A stretch of DNA of 64,000 nt from Rhodopseudomonas sp. P2A-2r (lineage in GTDB: Bacteria > Pseudomonadota > Alphaproteobacteria > Rhizobiales > Xanthobacteraceae). The notes beneath the pieces were generated by a model. The model did no database searches, had not been told where the DNA came from, and was given only the letters and a program-made list of their open reading frames with translations. The stretch lies in the NCBI RefSeq assembly GCF_026015985.1, contig NZ_CP110389.1, positions 4,992,001 to 5,056,000 of the forward strand. The letters run 5' to 3'. This document shows positions 4,275 to 62,957 of this stretch, in pieces. Numbering within the stretch: position 1 is the stretch's first letter; each line of letters begins with the position of its first letter. Position numbers and translations under genes: made by a program.

Positions 4275-4582
4275 CGCTTCTCTCCTGCTTTGGATGGCCG
4301 TTTCTCGATCTGCGCCCACAGCACATCGATGTCGGTTTTGGCCATCTTGAAAATCTCAACCGCCAGCTGGCGCCGGCCTTCCTCGATCCACGCCTGGCGA
4401 TCGCTCTCCGCCCGGATCGGGCCGAACACATTGGCGCGCAGCGCGATGTCGGCGAGCAGCGTCGGCTTGCTGCCGAGGTCGCGATATTGTTCGAGCACGA
4501 CGCGGCGGCGACCGCCGTCCGGCCACATCGCGGCGAACCAGTTGACCGCGATGTCGTACAGCTTTGAGGACACGCCACGCAT
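4271..4582 (-). CDS. Small phage protein between portal and scaffold
   Basis: A 103-residue protein (MRGVSSKLYDIAVNWFAAMW...) with a helical, charged C-terminal half ending EKRPSKAGEKR. It is translationally coupled on both sides: its ATG overlaps the portal stop (TGATG) and its stop overlaps the scaffold start (ATGA). I do not recognise the family. Small proteins in this slot of podoviral operons are often of unknown role. Confidence 0.6.
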   Translation of the reverse strand: MRGVSSKLYDIAVNWFAAMWPDGGRRRVVLEQYRDLGSKPTLLADIALRANVFGPIRAESDRQAWIEEGRRQLAVEIFKMAKTDIDVLWAQIEKRPSKAGEKR

Positions 4583-6197
4583 CACGACGCCTTCCGGCCA
4601 CGCGCCAGCGTCTCAGCCTGGGCGGCGTGGGCATTGTTGGCGTTGACTTCGGACATGACGCCGGCCTGCTCGACCTGCTGCTGACGCTGCAGCGCGGCGT
4701 TGCGGGCCTCGCGGTTCTGCGCCACGACGCGCGGATCGAGCTTGACGTTCGGCTCTCCGGTCATCGCGTCGTGCAGCACGCCGGACACGCCATCGATATC
4801 GACGTCGTCCATCCACATCGGGTTTTTGTACGCTCGTACATCGCCGCTTTGGTATTCACCCAGCCCAGCACGCCCTGCGCGCGTTCGGCCTTCTGTGCCT
4901 TGGTAAACGGCGACACGAATTTCGGCGTGATCGGCTGGCCCTGCAGCTCCGGTGGCGGCGCCGCAATCATGTTGGGAATGCGGCCGAGGATGTTGGCGCG
5001 CCGGGCGATGAAGCCGCCGACGCCGCGATAGATGCGCGTCAGGTTGGGCGCCAGCAGCTTCAACTCATCGGCCTTGTAGCCCTGTACTTCCTCCGCCGTC
5101 ATCTGCGGGCGCGCCTGCAGGATATCGGTCAGGCCGAAGCGAAACGCCTTCTTGACCTGCATGCGCAGGTCCTGGATGTAGGCCAGCGCCAGCTGCGGAT
5201 TTTCGCCGCGCTTGATCGCAGCCACTGGCGGCCGCCCGCCCTGCAGCGCCTCGCCATAGACCAGGCCGCCGGGGATCATATCCGCTGTCGTCAGGATATC
5301 TTCGTTCGCGGCCCACATGGTCGGTTCGGCTTCGAACTGCATGCCGATGATGGTAGAGCGCGCGGCTTCATCCAACCCGCGCATGTCAGCCAGCGCGTTG
5401 TGGCCGGGGCCGGTCGCCCAGCTACGGCCGCTGCGCATGTTCCACTGGATCTCGTGGCAGGGATCCTCGTTGTAGCCGAGACGCTCCTGATAGAAATCGC
5501 GCTTGTCCGGCGACACCACGCAGCTTGCCCACGGCTTGCCGCGTGGACCCAGCATGCCCGGCTGGTAATTCTCGTTGCGCCAGACGCAATGGATGAACAC
5601 CGCTTCCTCGTCATCACGCATCGCCGGCGCGGCGCGGCCGAATTCGATCTTGGCCTGCCGGCCGGTGAGGCGAAATTCGCGGGCACGGCGGACGGTGTTG
5701 CCGTTGGCATCGACCATCTTGTAGTTCTCGCCAATCGGCCGCGCGTTTGACATGATCTGGCCGGTGCCGACCATCTCCTCCTGCCACAGAAAGCCGTTGC
5801 CGAAGCCAGCGAGATCGCCGAACCAGGCGGGCGCGGACAGGTAGAAATTATCGTAAGCGGGGTTGAGCGAGGTGATGATTGCCGAGGTGTAGTCCCATAG
5901 CCACTTCTTGACCGGCTTGAACTCGGCGAGATCGGTGTTGTCGATCCCCAGCGAGAACCAGCGCTCGGCGGGGTTGATCGCCTTGACAAACATGCCGCCG
6001 GCGAAGTCATCGGCCGCATAGAGCGGCGTGCTGTCGAACGGGTCGTCCTGACCGTCGCGATCTTTCTTGTCGGTCGCATTGAAGCTTTGATTGTCCGGCC
6101 GCAGGAAGCGCGCGAGGTCGCGCCAGGCGGCCTCCTCGCGCTGGCGTTCGGTCTTCATCTGCTGATGAACTGGCTCGTGTTCGCTCCAGGCGGACAT
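4582..6197 (-). CDS. Portal (head-to-tail connector, T7 gp8-like), frameshifted
   Basis: The reconstructed protein has about 538 residues, the normal size of podoviral connector proteins (head-tail connecting family). The N-terminus (REEAAWRDLARFLRPDN, DSTPLYAADDFAGGM, INPAERWFSLG) is typical. The reading frame breaks at an A-run on the minus strand (4823-4827): before it the frame reads KAAMYERTK, and after a one-base correction it continues NPMWMDDVDIDGVSGVLHDA to the stop at 4582. One A missing from a run of six explains the break. The C-terminal part has the expected QNREARNAALQRQQQVEQ helix. The gene starts 3 bases after the preceding stop. Confidence 0.85.
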
Positions 6198-6200
6198 GCC

Positions 6201-6614
6201 TCAAGATCCCGACAGGACGCGGAAGCCGGTCGGCGCGGTGCCGAGCTTGCGCGACAGGCCGATGCCGAAGGGTGATGTTGATTGCAGCTTACGCTGGCGG
6301 CTTTCGCCGGCGACGCGGGCGCTTTCGCTGTCGATCGTGGGGATCAGCGCCGCCTCGCTCACGGCCAGCGCTTTCTTCTGCTGGGCCAGTGCCGCATCGG
6401 CCGACTGCCGCGCGATGTCGGTCTGCTGCCGCAGCGCGTTGGTCTGCTCGGCCATGGCCGCTTCGGTCGCCGCCGCCTGGCGGGCCGCGGCTGCTGCGCT
6501 ATCCCGGGACGCCTGCTGCTGCGACGCCGCATTCGCCGCGGCCGCCTCATTGGCGGAGTTGTCCGGCAAATCGATGCCGAGCACGTCGTCGACCAGCCAG
6601 CTGAAAAAGCCCAT
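6201..6614 (-). CDS. Ala/Gln-rich helical phage protein
   Basis: A 137-residue protein starting MGFFSWLVDDVLGIDLPD, a possible amphipathic or membrane-touching N-terminus. A long Ala/Gln/Glu-rich region (residues 24-95) is predicted to form a coiled coil, and the tail is short and basic. It sits between the large terminase and the portal. The composition resembles internal virion or core proteins of podoviruses, but with no recognised domain that is only a guess. Confidence 0.6.
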   Translation of the reverse strand: MGFFSWLVDDVLGIDLPDNSANEAAAANAASQQQASRDSAAAAARQAAATEAAMAEQTNALRQQTDIARQSADAALAQQKKALAVSEAALIPTIDSESARVAGESRQRKLQSTSPFGIGLSRKLGTAPTGFRVLSGS

Positions 6615-6722
6615 GGGTAGCTCCGGGGATCATCGAGAACCGGAACCTAGACCCGTGGCGCAGGCGTCAAGCGTGGTCGCGCCCGAGCCGGCCGGGGTTT
6701 TCCCGGCCGTCGCGAATGGCGG

Positions 6723-8359
6723 CTATCTCGCGCGGCGCACCGGGTTGTAGCGCTTGGCGCTGCAGTTCTGCTCGCGCACCTTGGCGCGGGCCTGGCTGAT
6801 ATCGGTGCGACGCTTGCGGGCGGCGTCGGTGCCGCATTCCAGCGCCATGTACTGCTCGGCGTCGGCGACGTGGGTATCGAAGGACGGCTTCACCGAGGAC
6901 AGGTCGTTGGAGCCCTGCAGCTTGCGGAACTGATAGGTCTGGCGCTTGCCGCGAAGGAGCCCCTTGCAGGACGGATCCAGCAGGTATTGCCGGCCGGGCG
7001 GGCCGATCTTGTCGCGCACCGCGTCCCAGCGCCGGCTGGCGATGTTGGTTTTCGCGAGATCCACCTCGCGGCCGAGCTTTCGCGCCAGGCGCTGCCGATC
7101 GGAGCCGCGCGAAATGGTCTGCTCGTTTTCCCAGTCGCTGCTGTTGTGGGCGACGTCCTTGTCCTCACCCGCCACCATCGCGGGATCGCACACGGTGCGA
7201 AACTCGCAGCCGCGGAAATCCCGCGCTTCCAGCGCCAGCATCGCCTGCGCCAGCTCATCCATGCCGCCGCGCTCCAGCGCGATTTCGCGCAGCGTGCGGA
7301 GCTGGCCATCCGGCATCTCCTGGCCGTACACCGCCGACGGCGTCAGCCCGCCATCAACGCCGACCAGCACCGGCAGCGCGGGCTCCGGCTGCAGCGGCAC
7401 CTTGGAGACGTGCAGGTCCTCGTCGAACTTGTCATAGACCAGATCGGTCGCGCGGGTGATGCCGGGCTTGGCGTGCACCATGCGGCGCACGTACCAGGGG
7501 TTCTTGTGGTTGACCGCGATGATCTGCTCGTAATAGGCGCGGTCGCCGCCATGCGCCTGCAGGTTTTCCGCGCCTTCGTCCATGCCGCCGGGCTGCTGGT
7601 AGCGCATGAAGCCCTCCGGCGGATCTTCCCAGAACGTCGGATAGGTCCAGTTCTCGACATCAGGCGCATTGAGATCGCCGAAGATGCGGCCGGTGCGGCG
7701 CGTCACCTCGCGCGGCGGCTCGCGCCCGACGGCGCGGCCAAGCCCGATCAGCAGCTCCTCCGGCAGCGTGTCGATCTCGCCGAGCTGCACGTCGGTGAAC
7801 TCGAGACCGCGCAGGTCATCCGGGTCGGCGTCCTCGCCATGCGCCAGGAACTGCGTCGTCATGTGGATGCGGCCGAAGGCGTCGTCGAAGTACAGATCGT
7901 GCCTGGCTGCGCGCGGGCTCGCGCCCGACCAGTGCGAGCCGGCAAAATCCTTCGGAAATAATTTCCAGTGCGAGGGGATTGCGGCTTTCCACAGAGCGTC
8001 GTACTTTTGTCGGAAGTTGCCGAGCACGTATCGGCGCACCCCGTCCGACCCGGGATAGATCCTTTGAGCTTCCACAAGCCCCTTCTTCTCGCTGGCGATC
8101 GTCTTGCCGCTGCCCACCGGGCCGCAGATGACGCTGACGGCATGCGTGCCGAGGATGTAGGCGTCGGACACCGGGCCGGCGCTGCGCAGCAGATTGATCT
8201 TCCCGGTTTTCTCCCCTTGTGAAGTTGATCGACGACGTCCGGATTTTGCTTTCGGAATTCGTCGTCGCTCTCCACCCAGCTCATCTGGTTCCGGTACGGG
8301 TCCGCGTTGCCCAACGCATCGGCGAGCGACGTATCGGCTAGCGGGATCTTCGACGTCAT
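6723..8359 (-). CDS. Terminase large subunit (DNA-packaging ATPase/nuclease), frameshifted
   Basis: The reconstructed protein has about 545 residues. A Walker A motif (CGPVGSGKT) lies near residue 80 and a Walker B-like VQLGEID follows. The C-terminal half has the acidic nuclease-type segments LVGVDGGLTPSAVYG and TVCDPAMVAGEDKD. The first 49 residues (from MTSKIPLADTSLADALG) are in a different frame from the rest. The break lies at the run of four G on the minus strand (8213-8216); one added G gives the smooth join QLHKGEKTGKINLLRSAG. It lies downstream of the small subunit, as in most tailed phages. Confidence 0.87.
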
Positions 8360-8617
8360 CGGCCGACTTCCCCCGCCCCGTGGCCGCCTCAAAACTTTCG
8401 CGATTTTTTTGGGCCTCGGCATCGCCAACAGGCGGTCCGGGTCGATGGCCGGAAAAATCTCAGGAGAGCAGCCGGGGGAGAGAGCGCTGGCGATTTTGGG
8501 GGTGGGGGTCCGGGCGACCCCGGGGGTAGGCCTGCGTTGTTGCGCGAAGCCCGGAGGCCGACGGCAGCGCGCGCCGGCCTCCGGTCCGTGCCGCGGCGGA
8601 TCCGACCCCGCGCGGCG

Positions 8618-8653
8618 ATCACCGGCCTGCCCTTTGAGCCACGGGCCGGTGAT
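8618..8653 (-). terminator. Inverted repeat between small and large terminase genes
   Basis: A 10-base perfect inverted repeat (ATCACCGGCC and GGCCGGTGAT) with a 16-base loop lies about 50 bases after the small terminase stop. There is no clear T-run. The surrounding gap 8360-8701 has no gene I can support; the repeat may be an attenuating structure or a packaging-related signal. Confidence 0.35.
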
Positions 8654-8701
8654 TTGGGATCAGCGGCCTGACAGAGCCAAGCCGCTGATATCTCTGGACT
8701 A

Positions 8702-9283
8702 TCATTCGCCGTGCGACACCTTGCCGTGCGACACGCCCGGTGTGACGTCGATGATGCGTTGATTTTGCTCGCTTTTTTCATTCGCGGTCGGATCGCCCTG
8801 TTGACGGAGCCAGGGCGGCAGTTGCTGGCCATCCGCCCCGATCTGAGCGCCACCATGCCCGTGAAACTCGACCGTCAAGCCAGGCACCGGCTTGCCGTTG
8901 TCGTCGACAGGTGCCTGCTTCGCGTAGAAATACGGCCGGAGATCCGCGCGGATCTTCTCCAGCAGCGTCGCGGCCTCCAGTTTTTCGCAGCCCAGCTCGA
9001 TCGACAACGTCTCCGGCGTGTGCATCGCCATCCTCGCGCTCTCCAGCATCGGATCGCCGATCGTCCGGCGGATGAAGTCGAGCATCTCGCGCGTGGTTTT
9101 GTTCTGCGCGCCAGGCGGCCGGCCGGCGCGATGCTGCCGCACCGCCGTCTCGACGCGCTGCCGCTCGCCGTCGGTCATGCTGCCGCGCATCGGCGGCATC
9201 AGATCGAGCTGCTCGGCCTCGGCCGGTTTCGCGGCCGCGGCAGCGGCGGCGATCTCTCCGCGTACATCGTGACTTTTCGACAT
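8702..9283 (-). CDS. Probable terminase small subunit
   Basis: A 193-residue protein upstream of the large terminase. It has a basic, helical central part with RAGRPPGAQNKTTREMLDFI, a DNA-binding-like segment common in small terminase subunits, then TLSIELGCEKLEAATLLEKI and an extended C-terminus. Small terminase proteins recognise the packaging site and load the large subunit. The start chosen is ATG 9283 (MSKSHDVRGEI), which has AGGAGG 10 bases upstream; an ATG at 9313 would be an alternative but lacks such a site. Confidence 0.72.
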   Translation of the reverse strand: MSKSHDVRGEIAAAAAAAKPAEAEQLDLMPPMRGSMTDGERQRVETAVRQHRAGRPPGAQNKTTREMLDFIRRTIGDPMLESARMAMHTPETLSIELGCEKLEAATLLEKIRADLRPYFYAKQAPVDDNGKPVPGLTVEFHGHGGAQIGADGQQLPPWLRQQGDPTANEKSEQNQRIIDVTPGVSHGKVSHGE

Positions 9284-9368
9284 TCGCTCCGAACCTCCTG
9301 AATTTACGAGCATATTTTATTGGCGGCGCGATAGTCGTCATGCGAGCAGCGCAGGGCGCGGCAGCAAG

Positions 9369-10042: not shown

Positions 10043-10043
10043 G

Positions 10044-15100: not shown

Positions 15101-15590
15101 CAGAAGCTGTCATCCTTTTGTGTAGTTGCGGCGGCGGTCGCTTCATTGTCGGCGTTCATGTCAGCGAGCACGTCAGACAGCAGCTTGTCGAAATTGTCCG
15201 GCGTGACGCCGAGCTGCGGCAGCCGCGACGTCTCGGCCTGGTCCTGCTTCCAGTCGGGCCGGTGATCGACGGATAGCTGCTTGTGCGGCGTGACCCCCGC
15301 TGGTTCAGCTCATCTACGACGAGATCGCACAGACGCTCCCTTGCATCGGAAAATCGATCGCCGTAACGGGCCAGGCCGGATCGTTCATACCGCGCATGCA
15401 GCGCAGCCTTCTTGAACTCGCTGAACAGGTCGTCATTCCCAATCGCATCTGTCGGATAGCTCATCGACGGAAACGCGCCGTATTGATTGGGATGCGCTGT
15501 CACGTAGGTCTTTTCGGTCAGCCGCCACTGCACAGCGAAGCCGTTGATCGTGCGCTGCGTGTACCAACTTGCGTTCAGGTTTCTGGTCAT
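15100..15590 (-). CDS. Phage early protein of unknown function, frameshifted
   Basis: The reconstructed protein has about 163 residues. The N-terminal part (MTRNLNASWYTQRTINGFAV...) runs to DELNQRG. There the frame breaks at a run of five G on the minus strand (15294-15298). One added G gives a continuous GVTPHKQLSVDHRPDWKQDQ and a conserved-looking LGVTPDNFDKLLSDVLADMN, ending at the TGA that overlaps the next ATG (TGATG). Without the correction the frame reads through Arg/Ser-rich nonsense into the next gene. I do not recognise the family. Confidence 0.6.
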
Positions 15591-21142: not shown

Positions 21143-22447
21143 ATGACCGTCAAGCTTCGCTATATCAAATGGCGCGAGGGCCGCCCGCGGCTCACCCATG
21201 GCCCCCGTGAGCGCGCCATGGGCCTGCTCGACCGCGACCTCATCGACCCCGACACCGGCCGCTGGCTGACCTACGAACAGGCCAAGGAGGTTTCCGACAA
21301 GCACGCGGCCGAGGTGGCGCGGCTGCGCTCGATCGGCGCCCGCGCGCTGCCGCCGAAGCCGGCGCGGATCGGCACCGTCGAGGATCTGCTAGAGGACTGG
21401 CTGGCGTCGCAGGACGTCCGCAAGCTGGCGCCGTCATCGATCGCTTCCTACCGCAAGGCGTCGCGGGCCATCATCTTCCGCCCAGAGAGCCGCGAGCAGG
21501 CCGCCGATCGCCGCAAGCGCGAGCGCGCGGCGGCCGTCCTCGGCGTCACGGTGCCGGAGCGCGAGCGCGAGCGCATCGCCTCCGCCACGCCGTCGTCGAT
21601 CCAGCCGCCGGAGATGCGCGCGCTGTTCAACTACCTCAAGAGCGTGCGCGGCCACCACATGGCGCTGGCGGCGATCGCAGCGCTGTCGGCCGCCTTCTCC
21701 TGGGGACGCGAGAGCGCGAAGTGGCGGTTGAAGACGAACCCGCGCATCGACATGCAATTCGACCGCCCGGCCGGCCGCGTGGTGATGATCACGATGGAGG
21801 AGTTCACGGCGCTGGTGGCCGCGGCCGACGCCATGGGCCGCGCCTCGATCGGCGACGCGATCTATCTCGGCCTGTTCACCGGACAGCGCCAGACCGACCG
21901 ACTGGCGCTCAGGGACGAAGGCCTGCAGCACGGCCGCCGGCACTTCCGCCAGAGCAAGACCGGCGCGCTGGTGGCGATCAAGGAAACGCCACAGCTCGCC
22001 GAACGTCTTGCCGGCGCCAAGGCCCGCGTGGCGGCCCTCAAGCTGCGGCTCGGCCTGCGAGAGATGCCCGACACCATCGTGGTCGATGAGAACACCGGCA
22101 AGCCGTACAACGAGCACACCTACCGGCACCTGTTCGCCGAGATCCGCGACCTTGCGATCAAGGGCCACGGCGACGTTGCCCCCTGCCCGACGCTGGCCTT
22201 CACCAACGAAAACTCCGGCGCGCCGGACTTCAAGCACGACCAGGATCTGCGCGACACCTGCGTCATGCTGCTCGATCGCTCCGGCTCCGATCTGATGTCG
22301 ATCTGCGACGTCACTGGCCACAGCTACCAGTCGGCGCAGATGATCATGAAGCACTACCGCGCCCGCAATCCAGAGCGCGCCGATGCTGCCATCGACCGGC
22401 TTGTTGCCTTCATCAGCACGACGGAATTCGGACAGCGAAATAGCTGA
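21143..22447 (+). CDS. int: Tyrosine-type site-specific integrase
   Basis: A 434-residue protein. The catalytic domain shows the first Arg in LFTGQRQTDRLAL (near residue 250), a Lys-containing beta hairpin (RQSKTGALVAI), DLRDTCVMLLDRSG with the second Arg, GHSYQSAQM with the His, and the Tyr nucleophile in MKHYRAR (near residue 404). In the HxxR box the His is Asp (DLRD), a variation seen in some phage integrases. The N-terminal part, KAFSW-like linker and core-binding helices are present. It ends 90 bases from the tRNA-Lys gene, its probable target. Confidence 0.93.
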   Translation: MTVKLRYIKWREGRPRLTHGPRERAMGLLDRDLIDPDTGRWLTYEQAKEVSDKHAAEVARLRSIGARALPPKPARIGTVEDLLEDWLASQDVRKLAPSSIASYRKASRAIIFRPESREQAADRRKRERAAAVLGVTVPERERERIASATPSSIQPPEMRALFNYLKSVRGHHMALAAIAALSAAFSWGRESAKWRLKTNPRIDMQFDRPAGRVVMITMEEFTALVAAADAMGRASIGDAIYLGLFTGQRQTDRLALRDEGLQHGRRHFRQSKTGALVAIKETPQLAERLAGAKARVAALKLRLGLREMPDTIVVDENTGKPYNEHTYRHLFAEIRDLAIKGHGDVAPCPTLAFTNENSGAPDFKHDQDLRDTCVMLLDRSGSDLMSICDVTGHSYQSAQMIMKHYRARNPERADAAIDRLVAFISTTEFGQRNS

Positions 22448-22537: not shown

Positions 22538-22585
22538 TGGTGGGCGCACCAGGGCTCGAACCTGGGACCCGATGATTAAGAGTCA
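22538..22585. other. Probable attR core within the tRNA-Lys 3' half
   Basis: The tRNA is complete and its 3' half (T-arm and acceptor) borders the prophage, so recombination restored a whole gene here. The identical copy marking attL must lie left of the window. The exact crossover cannot be fixed from one side. Confidence 0.5.
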
Positions 22586-22613
22586 TCTGCTCTACCAACT
22601 GAGCTATGCGCCC
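22538..22613 (-). tRNA. tRNA-Lys (anticodon CTT)
   Basis: On the minus strand the 73-base cloverleaf starts GGGCGCA (22613) and ends TGCGCCC plus discriminator A (22541), followed by an encoded CCA (22540-22538). The D-arm has AGCTCAGTTGGTAGAGC, the anticodon stem GATGA/TCATC encloses CTCTTAA giving anticodon CTT, and the T-arm has GGTTCGAACC. Its 3' end faces the prophage. Confidence 0.97.
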
Positions 22614-33430: not shown

Positions 33431-34398
33431 TCAGTTCTCGCTTTGAATGGCGCTGCGCGAAGATGACGGGTCGGCCGGTGCCGGACGCGCGGCCATGAAC
33501 ACGCCGGCCGCGATGACAACGACGGCAATGCCCCTAACCACGACGGGATTTCGCCGAGCACCGGGACCGCCAGTGTCGTGACGATCACCGGCAGCAAGGC
33601 AATGATCGCGGTGGCCGCGGCTGCTCCCAGCAGGGTCACGGCCCTGTTGAAGGCAATAGTCGCCACGACGCTCATCAGCACGCCCTGATAGATGAGTTGG
33701 AACGCCAGTTCAGGCAGCGACGCGCTCCCAAGTCGCGACAGGCCGAACCACAGATAGAGCGGTACGTAAATCACCGCCGACCAGAAGCAGATCAGTGCGC
33801 CGGCCTGCAGCGACGTCAGACCGCTGCTGCGAAACAGCAAGGTGTAGATCGCCCAGGTCAGCCCGGCGCCGACCAGCAACGCGATTCCATAGGGATCGGG
33901 CCAACCGTGAATGCGGGCATTGCCGATCACCAAGGCGGCCAGCCCGATCACGATCACCAGATAGCCGGTCAATCGCCAACGGCCCGGCGCCTCCCGCAGC
34001 GCCGGCCATGCCAGCAATCCCGCGAACACCGGCATCAGCGCCGGTGATATCGCCGACGCCTGGGCCGCCGATGTCAGTTGCAGGCCGAGCCCGACGAGGA
34101 ACACAAACGGCGCGCCCCACAGCACGGCGAACAGCAGGCCTTCCCGCCATGCGCCCCGCGGCAACGCAGCCTTTCGACCGACCAGAAACGGCAGCAGCAG
34201 CACGCCGCCGATTCCGAACCGCAGCGCCATGATGTCCCAGATCCGCAGTTCATGGGTCACGCTGAACCGCGTCACCACGAACCACCCGGAGAAGATGCAC
34301 ACCGACAATGCAGCCCACAGAAATCCTGCGAAGCGCCGCCGGCTTTCGGAGACGACGGGGCGCTCCGGCGGCGCTGCCGGTAGGACGTCGATACTCAT
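33431..34398 (-). CDS. EamA/DMT-family exporter, frameshifted near the end
   Basis: The reconstructed protein has about 322 residues and ten membrane segments in two EamA repeats. The first repeat includes SGWFVVTRFSVTHELRIWDI and PALMPVFAGLLAWPALREAP; the second ends VVTTLAVPVLGEIPSWLG. At the run of four G on the minus strand (33531-33534) the frame breaks. One added G gives GGIAVVVIAAGVFMAARPAP and a short tail, the expected last helix. Uncorrected, the end is a nonsense Arg/Ser tail. The substrate is unknown. Confidence 0.8.
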
Positions 34399-35913: not shown

Positions 35914-36738
35914 GACAAGGCTCCCGCCGATTGCGCGTAGCCCTTCATCACTTCGTCCTTCAGCACGTTCCAGATTTCGCGGTGCAGGGCGTGAAAGTCG
36001 TGCTGCAGCCGCACTTCAAAGATATCGCGCGGCCGCGGCAGCGCCACGCGCCAGTCGCCGATGATCCGCGAGGCCGGCCCCGCCGACATGATGACGACAC
36101 GGTCGGCCAGCGCGATCGCTTCTTCCAGGTCGTGGGTGACGAACAGCACCGCCTTGCGATCCTTGTTCCACAGGTCCAGCAGCAGGTTGCCCATGATCTG
36201 CCGGGTCTGCGCGTCGAGCGGCCCGAACGGCTCGTCCATCAGCAGGATCTTGGGATTGCGGATCAGCACCTGCGCCAGGCCGACGCGCTTGCGCTGGCCG
36301 CCGGACATCATGTGCGGATAGCGGTTGCCGAAGGCACCGAGCCCGACCGCGGTGAGCCATGCCTGCGCGCGTTCCAGCGCCTCCGCGCGCGCCACGCCGG
36401 AAATCTCGAGGCCGATGGCGACATTGTCGAGCGCGGTCTTCCAGGGGAACAGCGCGTCGGCCTGGAACAGGTAGCCGGCCTGCGGATTGAGGCCGCTGAG
36501 CGGCCGATCGAAGATGCGCACACTTCCCCCGGCGGGCTTCAGCAGCCCCGCCGCGACGTTCAGCAGTGTGGATTTGCCGCAGCCGGTGGGCCCGACGATG
36601 GCGACGAATTCGCCGTCGGCAACGGACAGCGTCGCCTTGTCGACAGCCGTATGAGACGCGCGCATCGGCCAGACCGAACGCTACCGTGGCATTGTCCAGC
36701 GCAACCGCCGGTGTTGTTGCGGCTGCCAGTGCCTGCAC
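35910..36738 (-). CDS. ABC transporter ATPase (SsuB/TauB type), frameshifted near the start
   Basis: The reconstructed protein has about 275 residues. The Walker A is GPTGCGKSTLL, the signature MSGGQRKRVGLAQ, and the Walker B ILLMDEPFGPLDAQTR, with the switch FVTHDLEEA. The N-terminus begins MQALAAATTPAVALDNATVA from GTG 36738, but the frame shifts between about 36645 and 36680, before TAVDKATLSVADGEF. The net change equals one extra or two missing bases. A start at ATG 36665 would drop the first beta strand of the domain, so I favour the frameshifted longer form. Confidence 0.82.
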
Positions 36739-41454: not shown

Positions 41455-42197
41455 TTATTGCGGAATGGGCCCGCCCGCCGCCTCCCGCTTGGCGATGCCA
41501 TCGATGAACACCGCGAGAATGGCCTCCGCCATCGCCCCGGCTTCGGCCTCGGCGATGCCCCAGCGCGGAAAATGACCATCGATATTCATGCGGGCGAAAC
41601 CGTACACCATGGCCCGACCGGCGATCTCGATCGCCCGCAGATCGGCGTCGCGAAGCTGGCCCTGCCCCGCCGCCTCCGCCAGCAGACGGCCGGTCATGCC
41701 GACCAGTTCGCCGTTGTCGGCGCTGACCTCCGCAGATTGGTCGTGGGTGAAATACTTGCCGCTGGAGATGACTTCGAAGTGCGCGGGATTTTGGATCGCC
41801 CAACGCAGGTAAGCCAGGCCGAGGGCACGAAACCGCGCCAGCGGATCGGTGGTGGGGGTATCGGCGATCGCCTCCGCGAGTTCTGCGCGGAACAGCCGCT
41901 GCGCCTCCTCGGCGACGGCCGTCATCAAGGCATTGCGGGTGGGGAAGTGGCGGAACGGCGCGCCCGGCGACACCCCCGAGCGGCGGGCGGCCTCGCGCAC
42001 GCTCACCGCGTCGGGGCCCCCTCCTCGACCAGCCGCAACGCCGCCTCGATCAGCACGCGCCGGAGGTCGCCGTGGTGATAGGCCTTCGGTGACAGGACGG
42101 CAGGCTCCGCCGCGCGGCGGGGCTTGGCGGGCGCCTTTCGCACGGCCGGCTTGCGCGACGCTGGCTTCGCATTCTTGATCATGCCAGTTTCTACCAT
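41455..42197 (-). CDS. TetR-family regulator, frameshifted
   Basis: The reconstructed protein has about 247 residues. A basic Ala/Lys/Pro-rich tail (MIKNAKPASRKPAVRKAPAK) leads to YHHGDLRRVLIEAALRLVEE. The frame then breaks at a run of five G on the minus strand (42017-42021). One added G restores GGPDAVSVREAARRSGVSPG and the helix-turn-helix, followed by an intact ligand-binding half with AAEGQGQLRDADLRAIEI-like helices. Its basic N-terminal extension is unusual for TetR proteins. It is divergent from the reductase-like gene at 42297, which it may control. Confidence 0.82.
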
Positions 42198-44357: not shown

Positions 44358-45103
44358 ATGACCTTCGACATCAGCATCTGGATCATCTGCGGCGCCGTGT
44401 TGCTCCTCGCCGGCTTCGTCAAGGGCGTGATCGGACTTGGATTGCCGACGATCTCGGTCGGGCTGCTCGGCCTCATCATGACGCCGTTGCAGGCCGCAGC
44501 GTTGCTGGTGATCCCGAACCTCGTCACCAACATCTGGCAGCTGGCCATCGGCGAGCCGGTGATGGCCCTGGTCAGGCGTCTGTGGCCGACGCTCGCCGGC
44601 ATTGTGCTGGGAACGCTGTTCGGCGCGCTGGCACTGCCCGCCGGGACCTCGCGCTGGGCCGTCATCGCGCTCGGCATCATCCTGGCGGTCTATGCGCTGA
44701 TCGGCCTGTCGGCCGTGCACCTGCAGGTGTCGCCTGTCGCGGAGCGCTGGGCCGGCCCCTGGTCGGCGTGCTGACCGGGCTGGTCACGGTGGGCACCGGC
44801 GTCTTCGTGGTCCCCGCAGTGCCCTATCTGCAGGCGCTCGGTCTGTCGCGCGCCATGCTGGTGCAGGCGCTGGGCCTGTCGTTCCTGACCTCGACCATCG
44901 CGCTGGCGCCGGCGATCGCCGCCACCGGCGACATGTCGCCCGAGATAGCAGGCGCATCGCTGATCGCTTTGGCGCCCGCGCTCGGCGGCATGTTTCTCGG
45001 CCAGGCGTTGCGCAACAAAATAGGCCCGGCAGTGTTCCGCCGGGCCTTCTTTGGTGGGCTCTTGCTGCTCGGTTGCTATCTGGCGACCAAGCCGTTGCTG
45101 TAA
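44358..45103 (+). CDS. TauE/SafE-family (DUF81) membrane permease, frameshifted
   Basis: The reconstructed protein has about 248 residues and eight membrane segments. The N-terminus carries AGFVKGVIGLGLPTISVGLL, the family's signature, and a repeat of it (VLTGLVTVGTGVFVVPAVPY) follows in the second half. The frame breaks at a run of four C (44756-44759); one added C joins ERWAGP to LVGVLTGLVTVG. Members export sulfite, taurine-derived or other organic acids. It lies 3 bases from the end of ilvC, converging with it. Confidence 0.83.
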
Positions 45104-48496: not shown

Positions 48497-50285
48497 TCAC
48501 ACCAGCGCGCCGCCGCCGGCGAAGGCGAGTGCGGTGGCTTCGTCGTTGGCTTCGGCGGGCAACAGCATCTCGTTGTGCGCCTTGCCCGACGGGATCATCG
48601 GGAAGCAGTTTTCCAGGTTGGCCACGCGGCAGTCGAACAGCACCGGCTTCTTCACCTTGATCATCTCGTGGATGGCGCCGTCGAGATCGCCCGGCTTGCT
48701 GCACTGGAAGCCGACGCCGCCATAGGCCTCCGCCAGCTTGACGAAGTCCGGCAGTGCCTCGGAGTAGGAATGCGACAGCCGGTTGCCGTGCAGCAGCTGC
48801 TGCCACTGCCGCACCATGCCCATGTACTGGTTGTTCAGGATGAAGATCTTGATCGGCAGCTGGTGCTGCACCGCCGCCGACATTTCCTGCATGGTCATCT
48901 GCACCGAGGCGTCGCCGGCGATATCGATCACCAGCGAGATCCGGATGCGCGACCTGCACGCCGAGCGCCGCCGGCAGGCCGTAGCCCATGGTGCCCAACC
49001 CGCCGGAGGTCATCCAGCGATGCGGCTCCTCGAAGCCGTAGAACTGCGCCGCCCACATCTGGTGCTGACCGACCTCGGTGGTGATGTAGGTGTCGAGATT
49101 CTTGGTCGCCTCGAACAGCCGCTGGATCGCGAACTGCGGCAGGATCACGTCGTTGTTCTTCTTGTAGGCCAGCGAATTGCGCGCCCGCCAGCCGGCGATG
49201 TCCTTCCACCACGCCCTGGTGTCCGGCTTCTTCGCCTCGGCCTTGAACACCTGCAGGATGTCGCCCAGCACATTGCCGCAGTCGCCGATGATCGGCACGT
49301 CGACGCGGATGTTCTTGTTGATCGACGACGGATCGATGTCGATGTGGATCTTCTTGGAGTTCGGCGAGAACGCATCGGTGCGGCCGGTGATGCGGTCATC
49401 GAAGCGCGCACCGACGCACAGCATGACGTCGCAGTCATGCATCGCCATGTTGGCCTCGTAGGTGCCGTGCATGCCGAGCATGCCGAGCCAGTTCGGCCCC
49501 GACGCCGGATAGGCGCCGAGCCCCATCAGCGTCGAGGTAATCGGAAAGCCGGTGACCTCCACCAGTTCGCGCAGCAGCTTCGAGGCCGAGAGGCCCGAAT
49601 TGATCACGCCGCCGCCGGAATAGATCACCGGCCGCTTGGCACCGGCCAGCAGCGCCACCGCCTTGCGGATCTGCGTGGCGTCGCCCTTGACCCGCGGCGA
49701 ATAGGAGATGTGCACGTCGGACTTGCGCGGCGGGTGATAGGTGCCGGTGGCGAACTGAACGTCCTTGGGCACATCGACCACGACCGGACCTGGCCGGCCG
49801 GTGGTGGCGACGTAGAACGCCTCGTGCAGCACCTTGGCGAGGTCCTTGACGTCGCGCACCAGCCAGTTGTGCTTGGTGCAGGGGCGCGTGATGCCGACGG
49901 TGTCGCATTCCTGGAACGCGTCGTTGCCGATCAGATGCGTCGGCACCTGCCCGGTGATGCACACCATCGGGATAGAATCCATCAGCGCGTCGGCCAGCGG
50001 TGTCACCATGTTGGTGGCGCCCGGCCCCGAGGTCACCAGCACCACGCCCGGCAGGCCGGTGGAACGCGCATAGCCCTCGGCGGCGTGTCCGGCGCCCTGC
50101 TCGTGGCGCACCAGGATGTGCTCGACCTCGCTCTGCTGGAAGATCTCGTCATAGATCGGCAGCACCGCACCGCCGGGATAGCCGAAGATGTGCTTGACGC
50201 CGTGGTCGGCGAGCGCGCGGACGATCATCGCGGCGCCGGTCATCTGGTTGGGATCGTGAGGCTTGTTATCGCTCGCGGTGGTCAT
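48497..50285 (-). CDS. ilvB: Acetolactate synthase large subunit, frameshifted
   Basis: The reconstructed protein has about 595 residues. It joins two pyruvates, or pyruvate and 2-oxobutyrate, using thiamine diphosphate. Motifs are HIFGYPGGAVLPIYDEIFQ, LVRHEQGAGHAAEGYARSTG with the catalytic Glu, and GQHQMWAAQFYGF. The cofactor-binding DIAGDASVQMTMQEM lies after a frame break near 48937-48941, where the sequence has one extra base (or two missing) after HPD. The rest (NNQYMGMVRQWQQLLHGN) is intact to the stop. The frame is kept on both sides, which speaks against a decayed gene. Confidence 0.95.
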
Positions 50286-50528: not shown

Positions 50529-50726
50529 GCGAAGTTGCCAATATCGCGCCAATTGGCAGCGTAGCCGGGTCTTTTGGGTTCGGCGAGCGCAAAATGGGGC
50601 GGGCAGCCCTGCGCCCGGTAGGGCCGGCAACGCGGCCCGACCATCGCCGCCCTTATGGTGAGAAGGCGCGAAGCGCCGTCTCGAACCACGAGCCTGCCCA
50701 GGTCGCGCAGCAACGCACGCATAACG

Positions 50727-52305: not shown

Positions 52306-53195
52306 GTCTCTCGTTGCGACGCTCATCTGCCATCCCGCCAATCCCGCCCTCGATAGCACGGTGCTGGACGGCGCGCGCGCGCGCTGCCGGGTCCGAACCA
52401 CGCCGAGTGGCTGTTCGACGGCGTCGCCGCCGACATCTTCTTTGCCAGCGACGACGACATGCTGGCGATCGCCGAGCGGCTGCGCGCGTCGCGCGGCGAC
52501 CAGCCCATCGACATCGTCGTGCAGCCTGCCGCCTCGCGGCGCAAGAAGCTTTTCTGGCCGACATGGACTCCACCATGATCGGCCAGGAATGCATCGACGA
52601 GCTCGCCGACTTCGCCGGGCTCAAGGCCCATGTCGCGGCCATCACCGAACGCGCGATGCGCGGCGAGATCGAATTCGAACCGGCGCTGCGCGAGCGCGTG
52701 GCGCTGCTCAAGGGCCTGCCGGTCGGCGTCGTCGACGAGGTGCTGGCCAGCCGCATCACGCTGAATTCCGGCGGCCGCGAACTGGTGCAGACCATGCGCG
52801 CGCACGGTGCCTATACCTGCCTCGTCTCCGGCGGCTTCACCCTGTTCTCGCGCAAGATTGCCGAACTGATCGGGTTTCAGGAAAACCGCGCCAATGAATT
52901 GCTGGTCAACGACGGCAAGCTGACCGGCGAAGTGGCCGAACCGATCCTCGGCCGCGCCGCAAAACTCGCCACGCTGGTTGACCTGCGCGAATCCTTCGAT
53001 GTCGACGACATCGACACGCTGGTGGTCGGCGACGGCGCCAACGATCTGGCGATGATCCAGTCGGCCGGCCTCGGCATCGCCTACCACGCCAAGCCGGCGG
53101 TCGCCGCCGCCGCCCACGGCCGCATCGATTTCGGCGACCTCAGCGCGCTGCTTTATGCGCAGGGTTTTAAGCGCAGCGAGTTCGTCGGCGGGTAA
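52304..53195 (+). CDS. serB: Phosphoserine phosphatase, two frameshifts
   Basis: The reconstructed protein has about 296 residues. It makes serine from phosphoserine. The N-terminal ACT-like part starts [21 protein letters not shown] first frame break in the GCGCGCGCGCGC tract (52370-52386) leads to [21 protein letters not shown] second, at 52554 (one C missing), leads to [20 protein letters not shown], which carries the catalytic [21 protein letters not shown] and the metal-binding [12 protein letters not shown] follow in frame. The two halves are typical of alphaproteobacterial SerB. Confidence 0.92.
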
Positions 53196-56947: not shown

Positions 56948-58092
56948 CGGGTGCTCCCGCTCTGCTGTTGCGGCTGCACAGGTGTCGCCGGGGGCTGCCG
57001 CCGCGGCGACAGTTCATTCAGGGGAAGATAGGGCAGAACGCCCTGCGCGTTGGCACCGCCGTCATAGACCAGCTTCTCGGCGCCGCCGAGAATCCGCTCC
57101 ATGGTTTCGAGATAGATGCGCTGGCGGGTCACTTCGGGCGCCTTCTTGTATTCGTCGTAGACTTTCAGGAAGCGCGCGCTCTGGCCCTTGGCCTCGGCGA
57201 CCGCCTGCTCCTTGTAGCCTTCGGCGACCTGGAGGATTTGCGAGCCACGACCGCGCGCATCGGGAACGACACGGTTGGCGTAGGTCTGCGCTTCGTTCTG
57301 CAGGCGCTCGAGATCGGCACGCGCGGCCTGCACGTCGCGGAACGCGTCGATGACCTGGGCCGGCGGATCGACCTTCTGCATCTGCACCTGCTGGACCAGG
57401 ATGCCGGCGCCATAGCTGTCGAGCGTCTTCTGCATCAGCTCCTGAACGTTGGCCTCGGTGGTGGTACGGGCGCCGGTGAGGATCGGCTGGATGTTGGCGC
57501 GGCCCACCACTTCACGCATGGCGCTTTCGGCGACCGCTTTCACGGTGCCTTCGGGGTTCTGGATGTTGAACAGGAAGTTGCCGACGCCGTCCGGCTTGAT
57601 GCGCCACAGCACCGTGAAATCGACGTCGACGATGTTCTCGTCGCCGGTCAGCATCAGGCTTTCCTCGGGCACGTCACGCATGGTGCGTCCGCGCCGGCCG
57701 GGATCGTCGCCCAGCGTCATGCCGATGCTCAGCGTCGAGACGCGCAGCGCCTTCGGCAACAGCACGGTCTCGATCGGATAGGGCAGATGATAGTTCAGGC
57801 CGGGCTGCACGGTGCGCACATGCTTGCCGAAGCGCAGGACAACGCCGAGTTCTTCCGACTGCACGCGGAAGAATCCGGACAGGCCCCAGATCGCCACCGC
57901 AGCGACGAGCACCAGCAGGATGCCCATGCCGCTGACGAAGCCGCCGGGCAGCAGCGACTGCAGACGGTCCTGTCCGCGGCGCAGCAGATCCTCGAGATCA
58001 GGCGGCCTCGGGCCGGACGATTGCGGACCCGAACCCCAGGGTCCTTTCGGACCAGAGCTCCACGGGCCTCCGCCTTGATTCTTCCACGGCAT
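56944..58092 (-). CDS. hflK: HflK, SPFH-domain protein modulating FtsH
   Basis: A 382-residue protein. The Gly/Pro-rich N-terminus (MPWKNQGGGPWSSGPKGPWG) is typical of HflK. A membrane segment follows (residues 55-78), then the SPFH domain with GVVLRFGKHVRTVQPGLNYH and ENIVDVDFTVLWRI, a coiled coil (DLERLQNEAQTYANRV) and a Gln/Pro-rich tail. It partners HflC. Confidence 0.95.
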   Translation of the reverse strand: MPWKNQGGGPWSSGPKGPWGSGPQSSGPRPPDLEDLLRRGQDRLQSLLPGGFVSGMGILLVLVAAVAIWGLSGFFRVQSEELGVVLRFGKHVRTVQPGLNYHLPYPIETVLLPKALRVSTLSIGMTLGDDPGRRGRTMRDVPEESLMLTGDENIVDVDFTVLWRIKPDGVGNFLFNIQNPEGTVKAVAESAMREVVGRANIQPILTGARTTTEANVQELMQKTLDSYGAGILVQQVQMQKVDPPAQVIDAFRDVQAARADLERLQNEAQTYANRVVPDARGRGSQILQVAEGYKEQAVAEAKGQSARFLKVYDEYKKAPEVTRQRIYLETMERILGGAEKLVYDGGANAQGVLPYLPLNELSPRRQPPATPVQPQQQSGSTR

Positions 58093-58265
58093 TCAAATCT
58101 CCTCGGCGCGGGCGCTGGACCGAAGTCCAGCCTCGCATGGTCAGCACGGCTTTATAGGGGACCGTCCGGCACCTTACAACGCAGGTCGTTACGTGCAGGA
58201 GCTATGCTTAACCCCTGATTGTCAATGCAGAACATCGCCGGATGCGGTTAATGCCGGCGGGGCGA

Positions 58266-58814
58266 CTATATGGCGCGGGGGCCGCTCTTATGCCGCTCAT
58301 ATGTCACATAGGAGAAATCGGCGCTGTCATCCGGGCCGGCAGGATGCTTGATGCGCGCCACTTCGTCCCATTCCGCGGCATCAATGGCAGGAAACACGGT
58401 GTCGCCATCGGGCCTGGCATGAACCTCGGTGATTTCGAGCCGATCGGCGATCCCCATCCATTGCGCATAAATGTCGGCGCCGCCGATCACCGCAATCTCA
58501 GTGGCTAAACGCCGCAGCGCATCGCCCTGCGCCACCATGCGGGCAGCTTCCATCGAGGTCGTGACCACAGCGCCCGCAGCCTGGTACTGCGCGTCGCGCG
58601 TGATGACGATGTGGGTTCTCCCGGGCAGCAGCCGAGGCAGCGACTCGAAGGTTTTGCGGCCCATGACGATGGGCTTGCTCATGGTCAGCGCCTTGAAGCG
58701 CTGCATGTCGGACTTCAGCCGCCACGGGATCGCGTTGCCCTGCCCGATCACGCCGTTCTCGGCGACAGCAACGACGAAGACGATCGCGATGCTGGACTTG
58801 TTAGTCGCGTTCAA
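58266..58814 (-). CDS. folA: Dihydrofolate reductase
   Basis: A 182-residue enzyme. Motifs are [20 protein letters not shown] with [11 protein letters not shown] (the Asp that donates a proton), [23 protein letters not shown] and [12 protein letters not shown]. It regenerates tetrahydrofolate, which thymidylate synthase oxidises. Its start overlaps the thyA stop (ATGA), so the two are co-translated. Confidence 0.95.
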
Positions 58815-59605
58815 ACCGCGACCTCGGCCTTGATATGCGGGTGCGGATCGTACCCTTCCAGCGTGAAGTCTTCATAGCGAAAAGCAAAAATGTCCTTCAC
58901 CTCGGGATTGATGGTCATCACCGGCAGCGGCCGCGTCGGGCGGGTCAGCTGCAGCCGCGCCTGTTCGAGGTGATTGGAATACAGATGCGCGTCACCGAGC
59001 GTGTGGATGAAGTCGCCCGGCTTCAGCCCGGTGACCTGCGCCACCATCATCGTCAGCAACGCGTAGGACGCGATGTTGAAGGGCACGCCGAGAAACACGT
59101 CGGCGGAACGCTGGTACAACTGGCAGGACAGCTTGCCGTTCGCCACGTAGAACTGAAACAGGCAGTGGCACGGCGGCAGTGCCATCTTGTCGACGTCGGC
59201 AGGATTCCACGCCGTCACGATCAGCCGGCGCGAATCCGGATTGCGCTTGATCATCTCGACCACGTTGGCGATCTGGTCGATCGCCCGGCCGTCGGCCGCC
59301 GGCCACGAGCGCCACTGCGAACCGTAGACCGGGCCAAGATCGCCATTGGCGTCGGCCCATTCGTCCCAGATCGAGACGCCGTTATCCTTGAGATACTTGA
59401 TGTTGGTGTCGCCGGCCAGAAACCACAGCAGTTCGTGAATGATCGCCTTCAGCGGCAGCTTCTTGGTGGTCAGCATCGGGAAGCCCGCCGCCAAGTTGAA
59501 GCGCGTCTGGTGGCCGAACACCGACAACGTGCCGGTGCCGGTACGGTCATGTTTTTCCGCGCCGTCGGCGAGGATCCGCTCAAGCAGGTCGTGATATTGA
59601 TTCAT
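58811..59605 (-). CDS. thyA: Thymidylate synthase
   Basis: A 264-residue protein, the same length as E. coli ThyA. Motifs are [34 protein letters not shown], and the catalytic Cys146 in [13 protein letters not shown], followed by [19 protein letters not shown]. It makes dTMP from dUMP with methylene-tetrahydrofolate. ATG 59605 is chosen because it gives the family-standard MNQYHDLL start; longer forms are not needed. Confidence 0.97.
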
Positions 59606-59735
59606 GTCGGCAACTGCGAGCCTTGGAGTGGCGTGGGAGCCGGCGAACCTAGCGCCCAATCGCCGACTGGACAGCCACGATTCGACGCTGACACCGGATT
59701 ATACCCTGGAAAATGGCCCCCTGCCCCGCAAACGG

Positions 59736-59765
59736 CAAGGGCCGGATCCTGGGATCCGGCCCTTG
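59736..59765 (-). terminator. Hairpin after tctC
   Basis: CAAGGGCCGGATCC and GGATCCGGCCCTTG form a perfect 14-base palindrome pair with a 2-base centre, 26 bases past the tctC stop. The T-run is weak (CCGTTTG). Confidence 0.65.
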
Positions 59766-59791
59766 AAATCACGCCACAATCTGGCGCGTGG

Positions 59792-60772
59792 TCACATGGT
59801 GGGCTTGAGCACCGCCGACCATTTGGCGACTTCGCTCTTCACCAGGGTTGCCAGCGCGGCCTGGGTGCGGCCTTCCGCCTTCGGGATGTCCGATCCCAGA
59901 TCGAGCAGCCGCTTACGGACGTTCTCGTCGTCCAGTGCCTTGGCGGCGGCGGCGTTCAGCTTGGCGAGGATCGGCGCGGGCGTCCCCTTGGGGGCGAAGA
60001 TCGCGTTCCAGGCCGACACCTGATACTTCGGCAGGCCGGCTTCGGTGGTGGTCGGCAGGTCCGGCAGTGACGGGTTGCGCTCCGGTGTCGCCACCGCATA
60101 GGCCTTGATGGTGCCGCCATTGATCTGCGGCACGGCGTTGACGATCTGGTCGCACATGTAATCGACCTGGCCGCCGACCAGCGCGTTCATTGCGGGCCCG
60201 GTGCCGTTGAACGGAACCCCGGTCGGCTTGATCTCAAGTACCGAGTTGAGCAACTCGCAGGATGAGTAGGACACCGAGCCGATGCCGGCATGGGCCATGT
60301 TCATCTTGTCGGTGTTGGCCTTCACGTAAGCCACGAATTCCTTGAGGTCCTTGGCCGGAAAATCCTTCTTGGCAAGGATCAGGATCGGCGTGCCGGCGAG
60401 CAGCGCGACGGGCTCGAAATCCTTCTCGGGATGATAGGCCAGCTTCGGATAAAGCGGCACCGCGGCGGCATGGGTGCCCATGTGGCCGGTGATCAGCGTG
60501 TAGCCATCCGGATTGGCGCGCGCCGCGCGCGTGGTCGCGGTGGTGCCGCCTGCACCCACCACGTTCTCGATGATGATGCTCTGGCCCAGCGTCTTGGCCA
60601 TCTCGGCAGTGACGATGCGGGCAATGATGTCGGTCGGTCCGCCGGCGGCGAACGGCACAATCATGGTGATCGAGCGGGTCGGATAGTCCTGGGCCTGGGC
60701 GGAAGCGGCAATCGATCCGAGGCCGGCCAGCGCGAGACCGGCGGTCGCAAGTGTGCGACGAAGGTAGTTCAT
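59792..60772 (-). CDS. tctC: Tripartite tricarboxylate transporter receptor (TctC/Bug family)
   Basis: A 326-residue periplasmic protein. The signal peptide is LATAGLALAGLGSIAASAQA. Bug-family motifs are YPTRSITMIVPFAAGGPTDI, SIIIENVVGAGGTTATTRAA and HAGIGSVSYSSCELLN. It binds a carboxylate and hands it to TctAB. It lies last in the operon after a strong hairpin. Confidence 0.93.
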   Translation of the reverse strand: MNYLRRTLATAGLALAGLGSIAASAQAQDYPTRSITMIVPFAAGGPTDIIARIVTAEMAKTLGQSIIIENVVGAGGTTATTRAARANPDGYTLITGHMGTHAAAVPLYPKLAYHPEKDFEPVALLAGTPILILAKKDFPAKDLKEFVAYVKANTDKMNMAHAGIGSVSYSSCELLNSVLEIKPTGVPFNGTGPAMNALVGGQVDYMCDQIVNAVPQINGGTIKAYAVATPERNPSLPDLPTTTEAGLPKYQVSAWNAIFAPKGTPAPILAKLNAAAAKALDDENVRKRLLDLGSDIPKAEGRTQAALATLVKSEVAKWSAVLKPTM

Positions 60773-60833
60773 GGCGTTCTCCCCGAAATTTTATGTCATC
60801 GCCAGCGCGATACATTCCGGGCAACTGAATACA

Positions 60834-60872
60834 CGCCGCGGCCCGAAGTCCATTCGACTTCGGGCCGCGGCG
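60834..60872 (-). terminator. Long hairpin between tctA and tctC
   Basis: CGCCGCGGCCCGAAGTC pairs perfectly with GACTTCGGGCCGCGGCG (17 bases, loop CATTC). It is 12 bases past the tctA stop. Such hairpins often let the receptor gene be expressed at a different level from the permease; a full terminator is possible though no T-run follows. Confidence 0.6.
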
Positions 60873-60884
60873 CAACGCCGCAGG

Positions 60885-62450
60885 TCAGTTTTCGGATTCG
60901 ACGAACACCTCGTCGCGCTTCTTCCGCAAGGAGGGAAGCAGCGCCAGCACCAGCAGGAAGGCCGAGATCGCCATCAGGCTCGCCGACAGCGGACGGGTGA
61001 AGAATACCGTCGCATCGCCGCGCGAGATCAGCAGGGCGCGGCGCAGGTTCTCTTCCATCAGCGGTCCCAGCACCATGCCGAGCAGCAACGGCGCCGGCTC
61101 GAAATCGTGCTTGATCAGCCAGTAGCCGAGCAGACCGAAGATGCCGGCCAGTACCACGTCCATCGGCGCGTTGTTCACCGAATAGATGCCGATGCAGCAG
61201 AACACCACGATCGACGGGAACATCAGGCGGTAGGGCACGCGCAACAGGCGGACCCAGATTCCGACCAGCGGCAGGTTGATCACCAGCAGCATCAGGTTGC
61301 CGACCCACATCGAGGCGATCATGCCCCAGACCAGTTCGGGCTGCTTCTGCATGACCTGCGGGCCGGGCACGATGCCATGGATGGTCATCGCGCCGACCAT
61401 CAGCGCCATGACGGCGTTGGGCGGAATGCCCAACGTCAGCAGCGGAATGAACGAGGTCTGCGCCGCGGCGTTGTTGGCGCTTTCAGGCGCCGCGACACCT
61501 TCAATCGCGCCGCGGCCGAACCGCGACGGATCCTTGGCGAGCTTCTTCTCCAGCGTATAGGCCGCGAACGACGCGATCACCGCGCCGCCGCCTGGCAGGA
61601 TGCCGAGGATCGAGCCCAGCACCGTTCCGCGCAGGATCGCCGGCGCAGAATCTTTCATGTCCTTGCGGGTCGGCATCAGGCCGGTGACCTTCTGCTGAAC
61701 CAGTTCGCGATCGCCCTCGCCGCCCGCATCGAGGTTGCGGATGATCTCGGCAAAGCCGAACAGGCCCATCGCCACCGTGGCAAAGCCAAGGCCGTCGGCG
61801 AGTTCGGGGATGTTGAAGGACATGCGCGACGCGCCGGTCTCGATGTCGGAACCGACCATGGACAGCAGCAGGCCGAACACGATCATCGCGATCGCCTTCA
61901 GCACCGAGCCCTTGGCCAGCACCACCGCGAAGATCAGGCCGAGGACCATCAGCGAGAAATATTCCGCAGGTCCGAACGCCAGCGCCAGCTTGGTGAGCGG
62001 CGCGCCGAGCACCGCAATCAGCACAGTCGCAACGCAGCCGGCGAAGAACGAGCCGATCGCCGCAATCGCCAGCGCCGGACCGGCGCGGCCCTGCTTGGCC
62101 ATCTGGAAACCGTCCAGTGCGGTCACGACAGAGCCAGCCTCACCGGGAATGTTGACCAGGATCGAGGTGGTGGAACCGCCGTATTGCGCGCCATAATAGA
62201 TGCCGGCGAGCATGATCAGCGCACCGACGGGCGGCAGGCCGAAGGTGATCGGCAGCAGCATGGCCACCGTGGCGATGGTGCCGATGCCCGGCAGCACGCC
62301 GACCAGCGTGCCGACCAGCGCGCCGATCAGGCAGAGCAGGATGTTCATGGGAACGGGAATCGACAGGCCATGCAGGAACGCCGGCGACCACTGCACGAAC
62401 TGGAAAACGACGCCGAAGCCGAGGCCGAGATTGGAGAAAAGATCGCCCAT
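60885..62450 (-). CDS. tctA: Tripartite tricarboxylate transporter large permease (TctA)
   Basis: A 521-residue protein with about 12 membrane segments. Signature regions are GTLVGVLPGIGTIATVAMLL, YYGAQYGGSTTSILVNIPGE and LGSILGILPGGGAVIASFAA. It is the main channel of a Na+- or H+-coupled carboxylate importer. It begins 7 bases after the tctB stop. Confidence 0.95.
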   Translation of the reverse strand: MGDLFSNLGLGFGVVFQFVQWSPAFLHGLSIPVPMNILLCLIGALVGTLVGVLPGIGTIATVAMLLPITFGLPPVGALIMLAGIYYGAQYGGSTTSILVNIPGEAGSVVTALDGFQMAKQGRAGPALAIAAIGSFFAGCVATVLIAVLGAPLTKLALAFGPAEYFSLMVLGLIFAVVLAKGSVLKAIAMIVFGLLLSMVGSDIETGASRMSFNIPELADGLGFATVAMGLFGFAEIIRNLDAGGEGDRELVQQKVTGLMPTRKDMKDSAPAILRGTVLGSILGILPGGGAVIASFAAYTLEKKLAKDPSRFGRGAIEGVAAPESANNAAAQTSFIPLLTLGIPPNAVMALMVGAMTIHGIVPGPQVMQKQPELVWGMIASMWVGNLMLLVINLPLVGIWVRLLRVPYRLMFPSIVVFCCIGIYSVNNAPMDVVLAGIFGLLGYWLIKHDFEPAPLLLGMVLGPLMEENLRRALLISRGDATVFFTRPLSASLMAISAFLLVLALLPSLRKKRDEVFVESEN

Positions 62451-62457
62451 GATGCCC

Positions 62458-62957
62458 TCAGCGGTTCAGAAACGTCGGCAGCATCTGCATCGGCAGACCC
62501 AGCCCGTAGGGAAACAGAATCGCGCAGAACGCGGTGAGGCAGACGCCAACGATGAAGGTTTCCTTCCACCGCGTCTCATGGGTGCCGAGCGCAGCGATCA
62601 TGAAGCTCGCCATCGCGGCGAAGATCATGCCCATCGGGCGAATGCTAACGGCGAAGCTCAGGATCGCCAGCGAGACGAACAGCGGTCCGCGCCAGGCATA
62701 AACCGCGAGCCTCGGCCCTTCGGTCAGCACGCCGACCAGCATGATGGCAAAGCCAAGCCCGAGCAGCAGGATGCCAAACATACGCGGCGCGGTTCCGGCA
62801 CCAAAGGAGAAGCCCCGCATGCCCTGCAGGTCGCTGGAAGCCCAAAGTGCGAACGCCGCAATCGCGACCAAGGCGAGACCGCCAAAAAATCCTGCGGTGC
62901 CTTTATCCAGTTCGGCAGAACTGAATCCCCCGGCACATGGCTCGGCATATCACTCAT
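62458..62957 (-). CDS. tctB: Tripartite tricarboxylate transporter small permease (TctB), frameshifted
   Basis: The reconstructed protein has about 166 residues and four membrane segments. The N-terminus (MSDMPSHVPGDSVLPNWIKA) runs to PQD, then the frame breaks at a run of six A (62884-62889, T on the minus strand). One added base gives FFGGLALVAIAAFALWASSD and leads into the intact TctB pattern GTAPRMFGILLLGLGFAIML. GGGGGA precedes the ATG at 62957. Confidence 0.85.

Follow-up and report, generated by a model that had tools for sequence, protein, structure and literature searches.

The window analyzed here is a 64,000-nucleotide stretch of Rhodopseudomonas sp. P2A-2r (contig NZ_CP110389.1), corresponding to bases 4992001–5056000 of a genome assembled as one contig of 6,737,367 bases (labeled G000). 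Approximately positions 1–22,500 of the window are part of a prophage, with an integrase at 21143–22447 adjoining a tRNA-Lys gene at 22538–22613, and positions 22,538–63,922 are host DNA, partly syntenic with stretches from eight congeners. An initial annotation, made from the letters and their open reading frames, had listed eleven frameshifts in ten genes of this window. Each claimed break was checked against intact homologues or family profiles, with the pieces on the two sides searched separately. To call breaks as deletion or insertion type, three sources were used: how far the aligned pieces are offset, gaps in DNA alignments, and a coding-statistics Viterbi hidden Markov model (HMM). 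At a shift penalty of -12, this model recovered 48 of 66 simulated single-base errors in congener G011 and placed them with a median error of 3 nucleotides. The breaks, in window coordinates and with the evidence or context for each in parentheses, are as follows.

4823–4827, minus strand: phage portal/head-tail adaptor gene, frame break between pieces at 4764–6200 and 4585–4827 (homologues and phrog_332)
8198–8219, minus strand: phage large terminase, frame break (N-terminal ~54 codons in another frame)
15294–15300, minus strand: early phage gene with no function assigned, probable frame break (HMM; weakest case)
33531–33547, minus strand: EamA-family transporter (Pfam EamA), break near the 3′ end (orthologue alignment)
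36653–36655, minus strand: ABC transporter ATPase, insertion-type break near the 5′ end (homologues and DNA gap)
42017–42021, minus strand: TetR-family regulator, frame break (Pfam, orthologues and DNA gap)
44756–44759, plus strand: TauE/SafE-family permease, frame break (Pfam pieces and an HMM event at 44759)
48936–48939, minus strand: ilvB, acetolactate synthase large subunit, insertion-type break (inside a GATCTCG heptamer)
52370–52386, plus strand: serB, phosphoserine phosphatase, first break (in a GC dinucleotide run)
52542–52554, plus strand: serB, second break (seven relatives; the third frame encodes the SerB catalytic domain)
62883–62904, minus strand: tctB-like small membrane-protein gene, break near the 5′ end (orthologue alignment)

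The ilvB break divides the NCBIfam equivalog profile NF006581 between two frames (profile positions 3–448 and 449–594). Both halves align at 92–95% identity to seven of eight orthologues, the eighth giving the C-terminal half only, and in a separate comparison the break was given by all eight relatives, each of which aligns with a gap. For serB, both breaks, and with them three frames, were recovered with four listed orthologues and the second break alone with three more. Upstream of ilvB, at 50650–50692, lies a dispersed repeat of ~43 bases that occurs in tens of copies in congeners at ~80–95% identity.

Among the remaining host genes, the sole orthologue found for the EamA transporter (in G002) switches frame at 33535–33547 with offsets of the deletion type. 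N-terminal residues of the ABC ATPase (1–28 or 4–33) align in another frame up to 36655 in four of the best eight homologues listed, the other four of these eight displaying no N-terminal piece, and the gap in the DNA alignment is common to five relatives. The TetR regulator was covered in both frames by two of three orthologues, with the switch near 42021 and a gap common to three relatives; its Pfam TetR_N match starts only at profile position 13. The TauE/SafE permease was judged by the profile rather than by orthologues, and gave Pfam pieces 3–112 and 130–237 in successive frames. Three of four orthologues of the tctB-like gene, whose name is that of the initial annotation and for which no NCBIfam match was obtained, switch frame at 62883–62904.

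In the prophage, all four intact homologues of the portal protein (537–541 amino acids) align in two frames with a switch within 4821–4875, and phrog_332 is divided into 19–475 and 478–547, the second piece being weak (E 0.017). The four intact homologues of the large terminase (539–543 amino acids; from the G009 prophage, L232, L233 and G110) likewise all switch frame, within 8198–8231. The frameshift in the early phage gene is probable and the weakest of the eleven: the HMM places a shift event at 15300, and the C-terminus read in the new frame looks, by eye, like that of a protein from a related prophage, while the rest of the gene gave no PHROG match and no viral relative. Related prophages were found in G009 (contig C83, terminase 85% identical) and on two IMG/VR contigs.

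Nine of the eleven breaks are of the deletion type and two, in the ABC ATPase and ilvB, of the insertion type. Eight lie in or beside homopolymers of 4–6 bases, the exceptions being these two genes and the first serB break. The observation in the initial annotation is confirmed: ten of its eleven frameshifts are backed by homologues or divided profiles, with weaker evidence for the early phage gene, and its description of them as mostly single bases missing from homopolymers holds. The ilvB break, an insertion within GATCTCG, falls outside this pattern.

To set a rate, frame switches were counted in a G000 sample made up of 400 kb around the window and twenty 20-kb stretches elsewhere (L045, which overlaps the flank, was left out) and in stretches from the eight congeners (G001, G002, G005, G008, G009, G010, G011 and G012). 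Predicted proteins of other genomes were searched with tblastn, and a cluster was scored wherever neighboring collinear pieces fell in different frames. G000 gave 27 clusters in 199,206 homologue-covered nucleotides. Five of these lie in the window (33,655 nucleotides, 14.9 per 100 kb) and 22 in the rest of the sample (13.3 per 100 kb); the window is not special, its break rate being close to that found elsewhere in the sampled genome. The congeners together gave 16 clusters in 792,529 nucleotides, or in ~776,000 without a doubly sampled stretch (2.0–2.1 per 100 kb); that stretch, L063, overlaps the G010 flank, accounts for the 16,614 covered nucleotides removed and holds none of the nine G010 clusters. 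By genome, the count was nine in G010, two each in G001, G002 and G008, one in G011 and none in G005, G009 and G012. G010, also a single-contig genome, has a mildly raised rate (nine in ~266,000 covered nucleotides) and shows no GATCTCG class. The HMM, at -12, called 74 events in 858 kb of G000 versus 41 in 1,948 kb of the congeners. Extrapolated from both frame-based methods, with 85% coding assumed for the tblastn figure, such errors would number roughly 600 across the 6.74 Mb.

Genes that a cell cannot do without are also broken. The dnaE gene is divided between two open frames, one of 351 and one of 928 amino acids (ten relatives: a single frame of 1147–1222), and elsewhere in G000 there is only a second, lower-scoring DnaE-like gene. 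A putative ileS, so named by inference from its rank in a search with a valS profile, is divided between a frame of 531 and one of 662 amino acids, compared with 988–1178 in seven of ten relatives and shorter pieces in three drafts. Of the 23 E. coli genes with a match in a 13-kb ribosomal stretch, three are divided, namely rplF (L6), rplR (L18) and rpsK (S11). The divided rpsK is the sole match in G000; 18 of 20 relatives have it in one frame above the cut-off and two gave no match. No cell could survive the loss of dnaE together with three ribosomal genes, and the consensus must therefore be wrong at dnaE, rplF, rplR and rpsK. The breaks in the window resemble these in kind and in frequency.

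We conclude, with a probability of about 0.97, that these frameshifts arose as consensus errors in a long-read assembly lacking adequate short-read correction; the DNA of the cell itself is very probably intact there. The feature is not biological. At homopolymers, run lengths would have been under-called; at the heptamer, GANTC sites methylated by CcrM may have been misread; and a long-read consensus left without adequate short-read polishing accounts for the listed breaks. Bacterial assemblies made from long reads alone are reported to keep residual errors in homopolymers, with frameshifts as the result (PMC8812927). Single-base indels, short runs and a genome-wide spread over all gene classes are shared with G000. 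There is no difference of substance, the G000 platform, probably nanopore, having been deduced from the assembled sequence rather than from reads or metadata.

Real pseudogenes in a strain or prophage decaying by neutral mutation are very improbable. The breaks are truly present in the record, and a cell could tolerate them in transporters and in a prophage; it could not in dnaE and three ribosomal genes, and the halves of ilvB are still 92–95% identical to their orthologues. Nor are in-frame stops raised: G000 has five, of which three lie at the TetR break, with 27 shifts, versus 29 with 16 shifts in the congeners (Fisher P 2e-5 for the shift-to-stop ratio). When G000 breaks were binned by identity, the rate per 100 kb was 16.3 at 60–75%, 15.2 at 75–85%, 14.2 at 85–92% and 19.5 at 92–100%. 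It does not drop in the better conserved genes (at least 60% identity), and there is no sign of purifying selection.

Programmed ribosomal frameshifting as the source of some breaks, for example in phage genes, is less probable still. Phages use such shifts in some tail genes; the homologues of the portal and terminase proteins are single open frames in all four relatives, and the query orthologues of ilvB and serB are single frames as well. Least probable of all is a mutator strain, deficient in mismatch repair and gaining real homopolymer indels, which would account for the bias of deletion-type events to homopolymers and is contradicted by intact mutS (open frame of 916 amino acids) and mutL (658 amino acids), by short runs (a run of at least 6 accounts for one of the 59 deletion-type events), by the broken indispensable genes and by an insertion class at one heptamer, which is not expected from loss of mismatch repair.

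Several results weigh against consensus error as the explanation. The completeness figure quoted for G000 is 99.83%. The bin of 35–60% identity has a lower rate (4.6 breaks per 100 kb), perhaps from weaker detection. Twenty of the 23 matched genes in the ribosomal stretch are uninterrupted, as are rpoB, rpoC, secA, valS, fusA, tufA, rpsL, rpsG, rpsJ, rplC and lepA, the last being the only tried E. coli protein found in the first samples. On the three ribosomal breaks, the HMM calls none at a penalty of -14 and two at -9, together with events at gene borders. At lax penalties (-9 and -6) it does not separate the genomes, because gene overlaps dominate and produce numerous false events in every one of them. 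A census of nucleotide gaps that included intergenic DNA did not set G000 apart from its relatives (isolated gaps numbered 37 in G000, or 21.6 per 100 kb, versus 14.7–48.3 per 100 kb in six relatives); this census is not discriminating, because intergenic gaps swamp the signal. In the same census, the one subset that is raised is that of gaps shared by at least two genomes, which made up 14 of 37 in G000 versus two of 35 in G011, three of 44 in G010 and 4–6 of 17–27 in the four others.

The artefact interpretation of the initial annotation, read-type errors rather than decay, is supported, more strongly than the sequence of the window alone could show, by the like rate in the rest of the sample, the broken indispensable genes, the stops and the 92–95% identity of orthologues on both sides of the ilvB break. 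Accumulated stop codons, which it had named among the signs that would speak for decay, were looked for and are not raised in G000. Its argument from essential amino-acid genes stands in part: ilvB and serB are broken, and these two alone are not decisive, because auxotrophs are viable; what decides the matter is dnaE and the ribosomal genes. Although quoted as 99.8% complete, this one-contig genome is estimated to carry several hundred false frameshifts. The record would mislead pseudogene counts, the inference of auxotrophy (for branched-chain amino acids and serine) and calls of dead prophages. A high completeness score does not expose errors of this kind; broken ribosomal genes are a quick test.

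The sequence context of the errors was taken from 75 HMM events in G000 (59 deletion type, 16 insertion type). Deletion-type events fell at homopolymers of at least 4 in 26 of 59 cases (5.9 expected), versus five of 41 events at homopolymers in the congeners. Insertion-type events fell at GATCTCG/CGAGATC in five of 16 cases (0.27 expected; this comparison is post hoc, the motif having been noticed in the same list), and the rplF and rpsK breaks, fetched later, likewise lie at CGAGATC. There is, in addition to the homopolymer class, a second class of breaks that is linked to a motif.

In alphaproteobacteria, the cell-cycle methylase CcrM acts on GANTC. In five of the eight relatives, the place aligned with the ilvB break holds GANTC. 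A RAMA domain, which we take to mark CcrM, is encoded at G000:C1:6080359–6080658 in an open frame of 199 amino acids; the RAMA-domain protein of relatives has 369–417 amino acids (11 of 12 relatives matching), and the CcrM-like methylase gene itself seems to be broken in the record. The GATCTCG/CGAGATC insertions may be a fingerprint of CcrM-methylated GANTC misread by a nanopore basecaller, an explanation that we hold tentatively and at somewhat below even odds. Two observations speak against it: three of the eight relatives lack GANTC at the place aligned with the ilvB break, and in genome-wide counts of G000 GATTCG is not depleted and GATCTCG is not raised. Since GATTCG is not depleted, misreading can concern no more than a small fraction of these sites. 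Systematic misreading of all CcrM sites was considered and rejected, there being neither a genome-wide depletion of GATTC nor an excess of GATCTC.

Errors near a methylation target have precedents in passages of three reports: for agrobacteria, errors close to GANTC in nanopore assemblies (PMC12710330); for Brucella, two nanopore errors near GANTC (PMC12392509); and for Listeria, methylation-linked nanopore errors at other motifs (PMC10687267). What these passages share with G000 is errors near a fixed motif that is tied to a methylation target; they give single-nucleotide polymorphism or mismatch errors, or counts only, whereas G000 has insertion-type frameshifts at GATCTCG/CGAGATC that can affect only a small share of candidate sites. 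If the CcrM fingerprint were true, finding this heptamer at breaks in conserved genes, rpsK for example, could reveal unpolished alphaproteobacterial assemblies, and the methylome would have left an indirect trace in the record. Between rpoC and rpsL, an ABC-exporter-like gene likewise has a frame break at CGAGATC (L256:4756; G000:C1:2980756).

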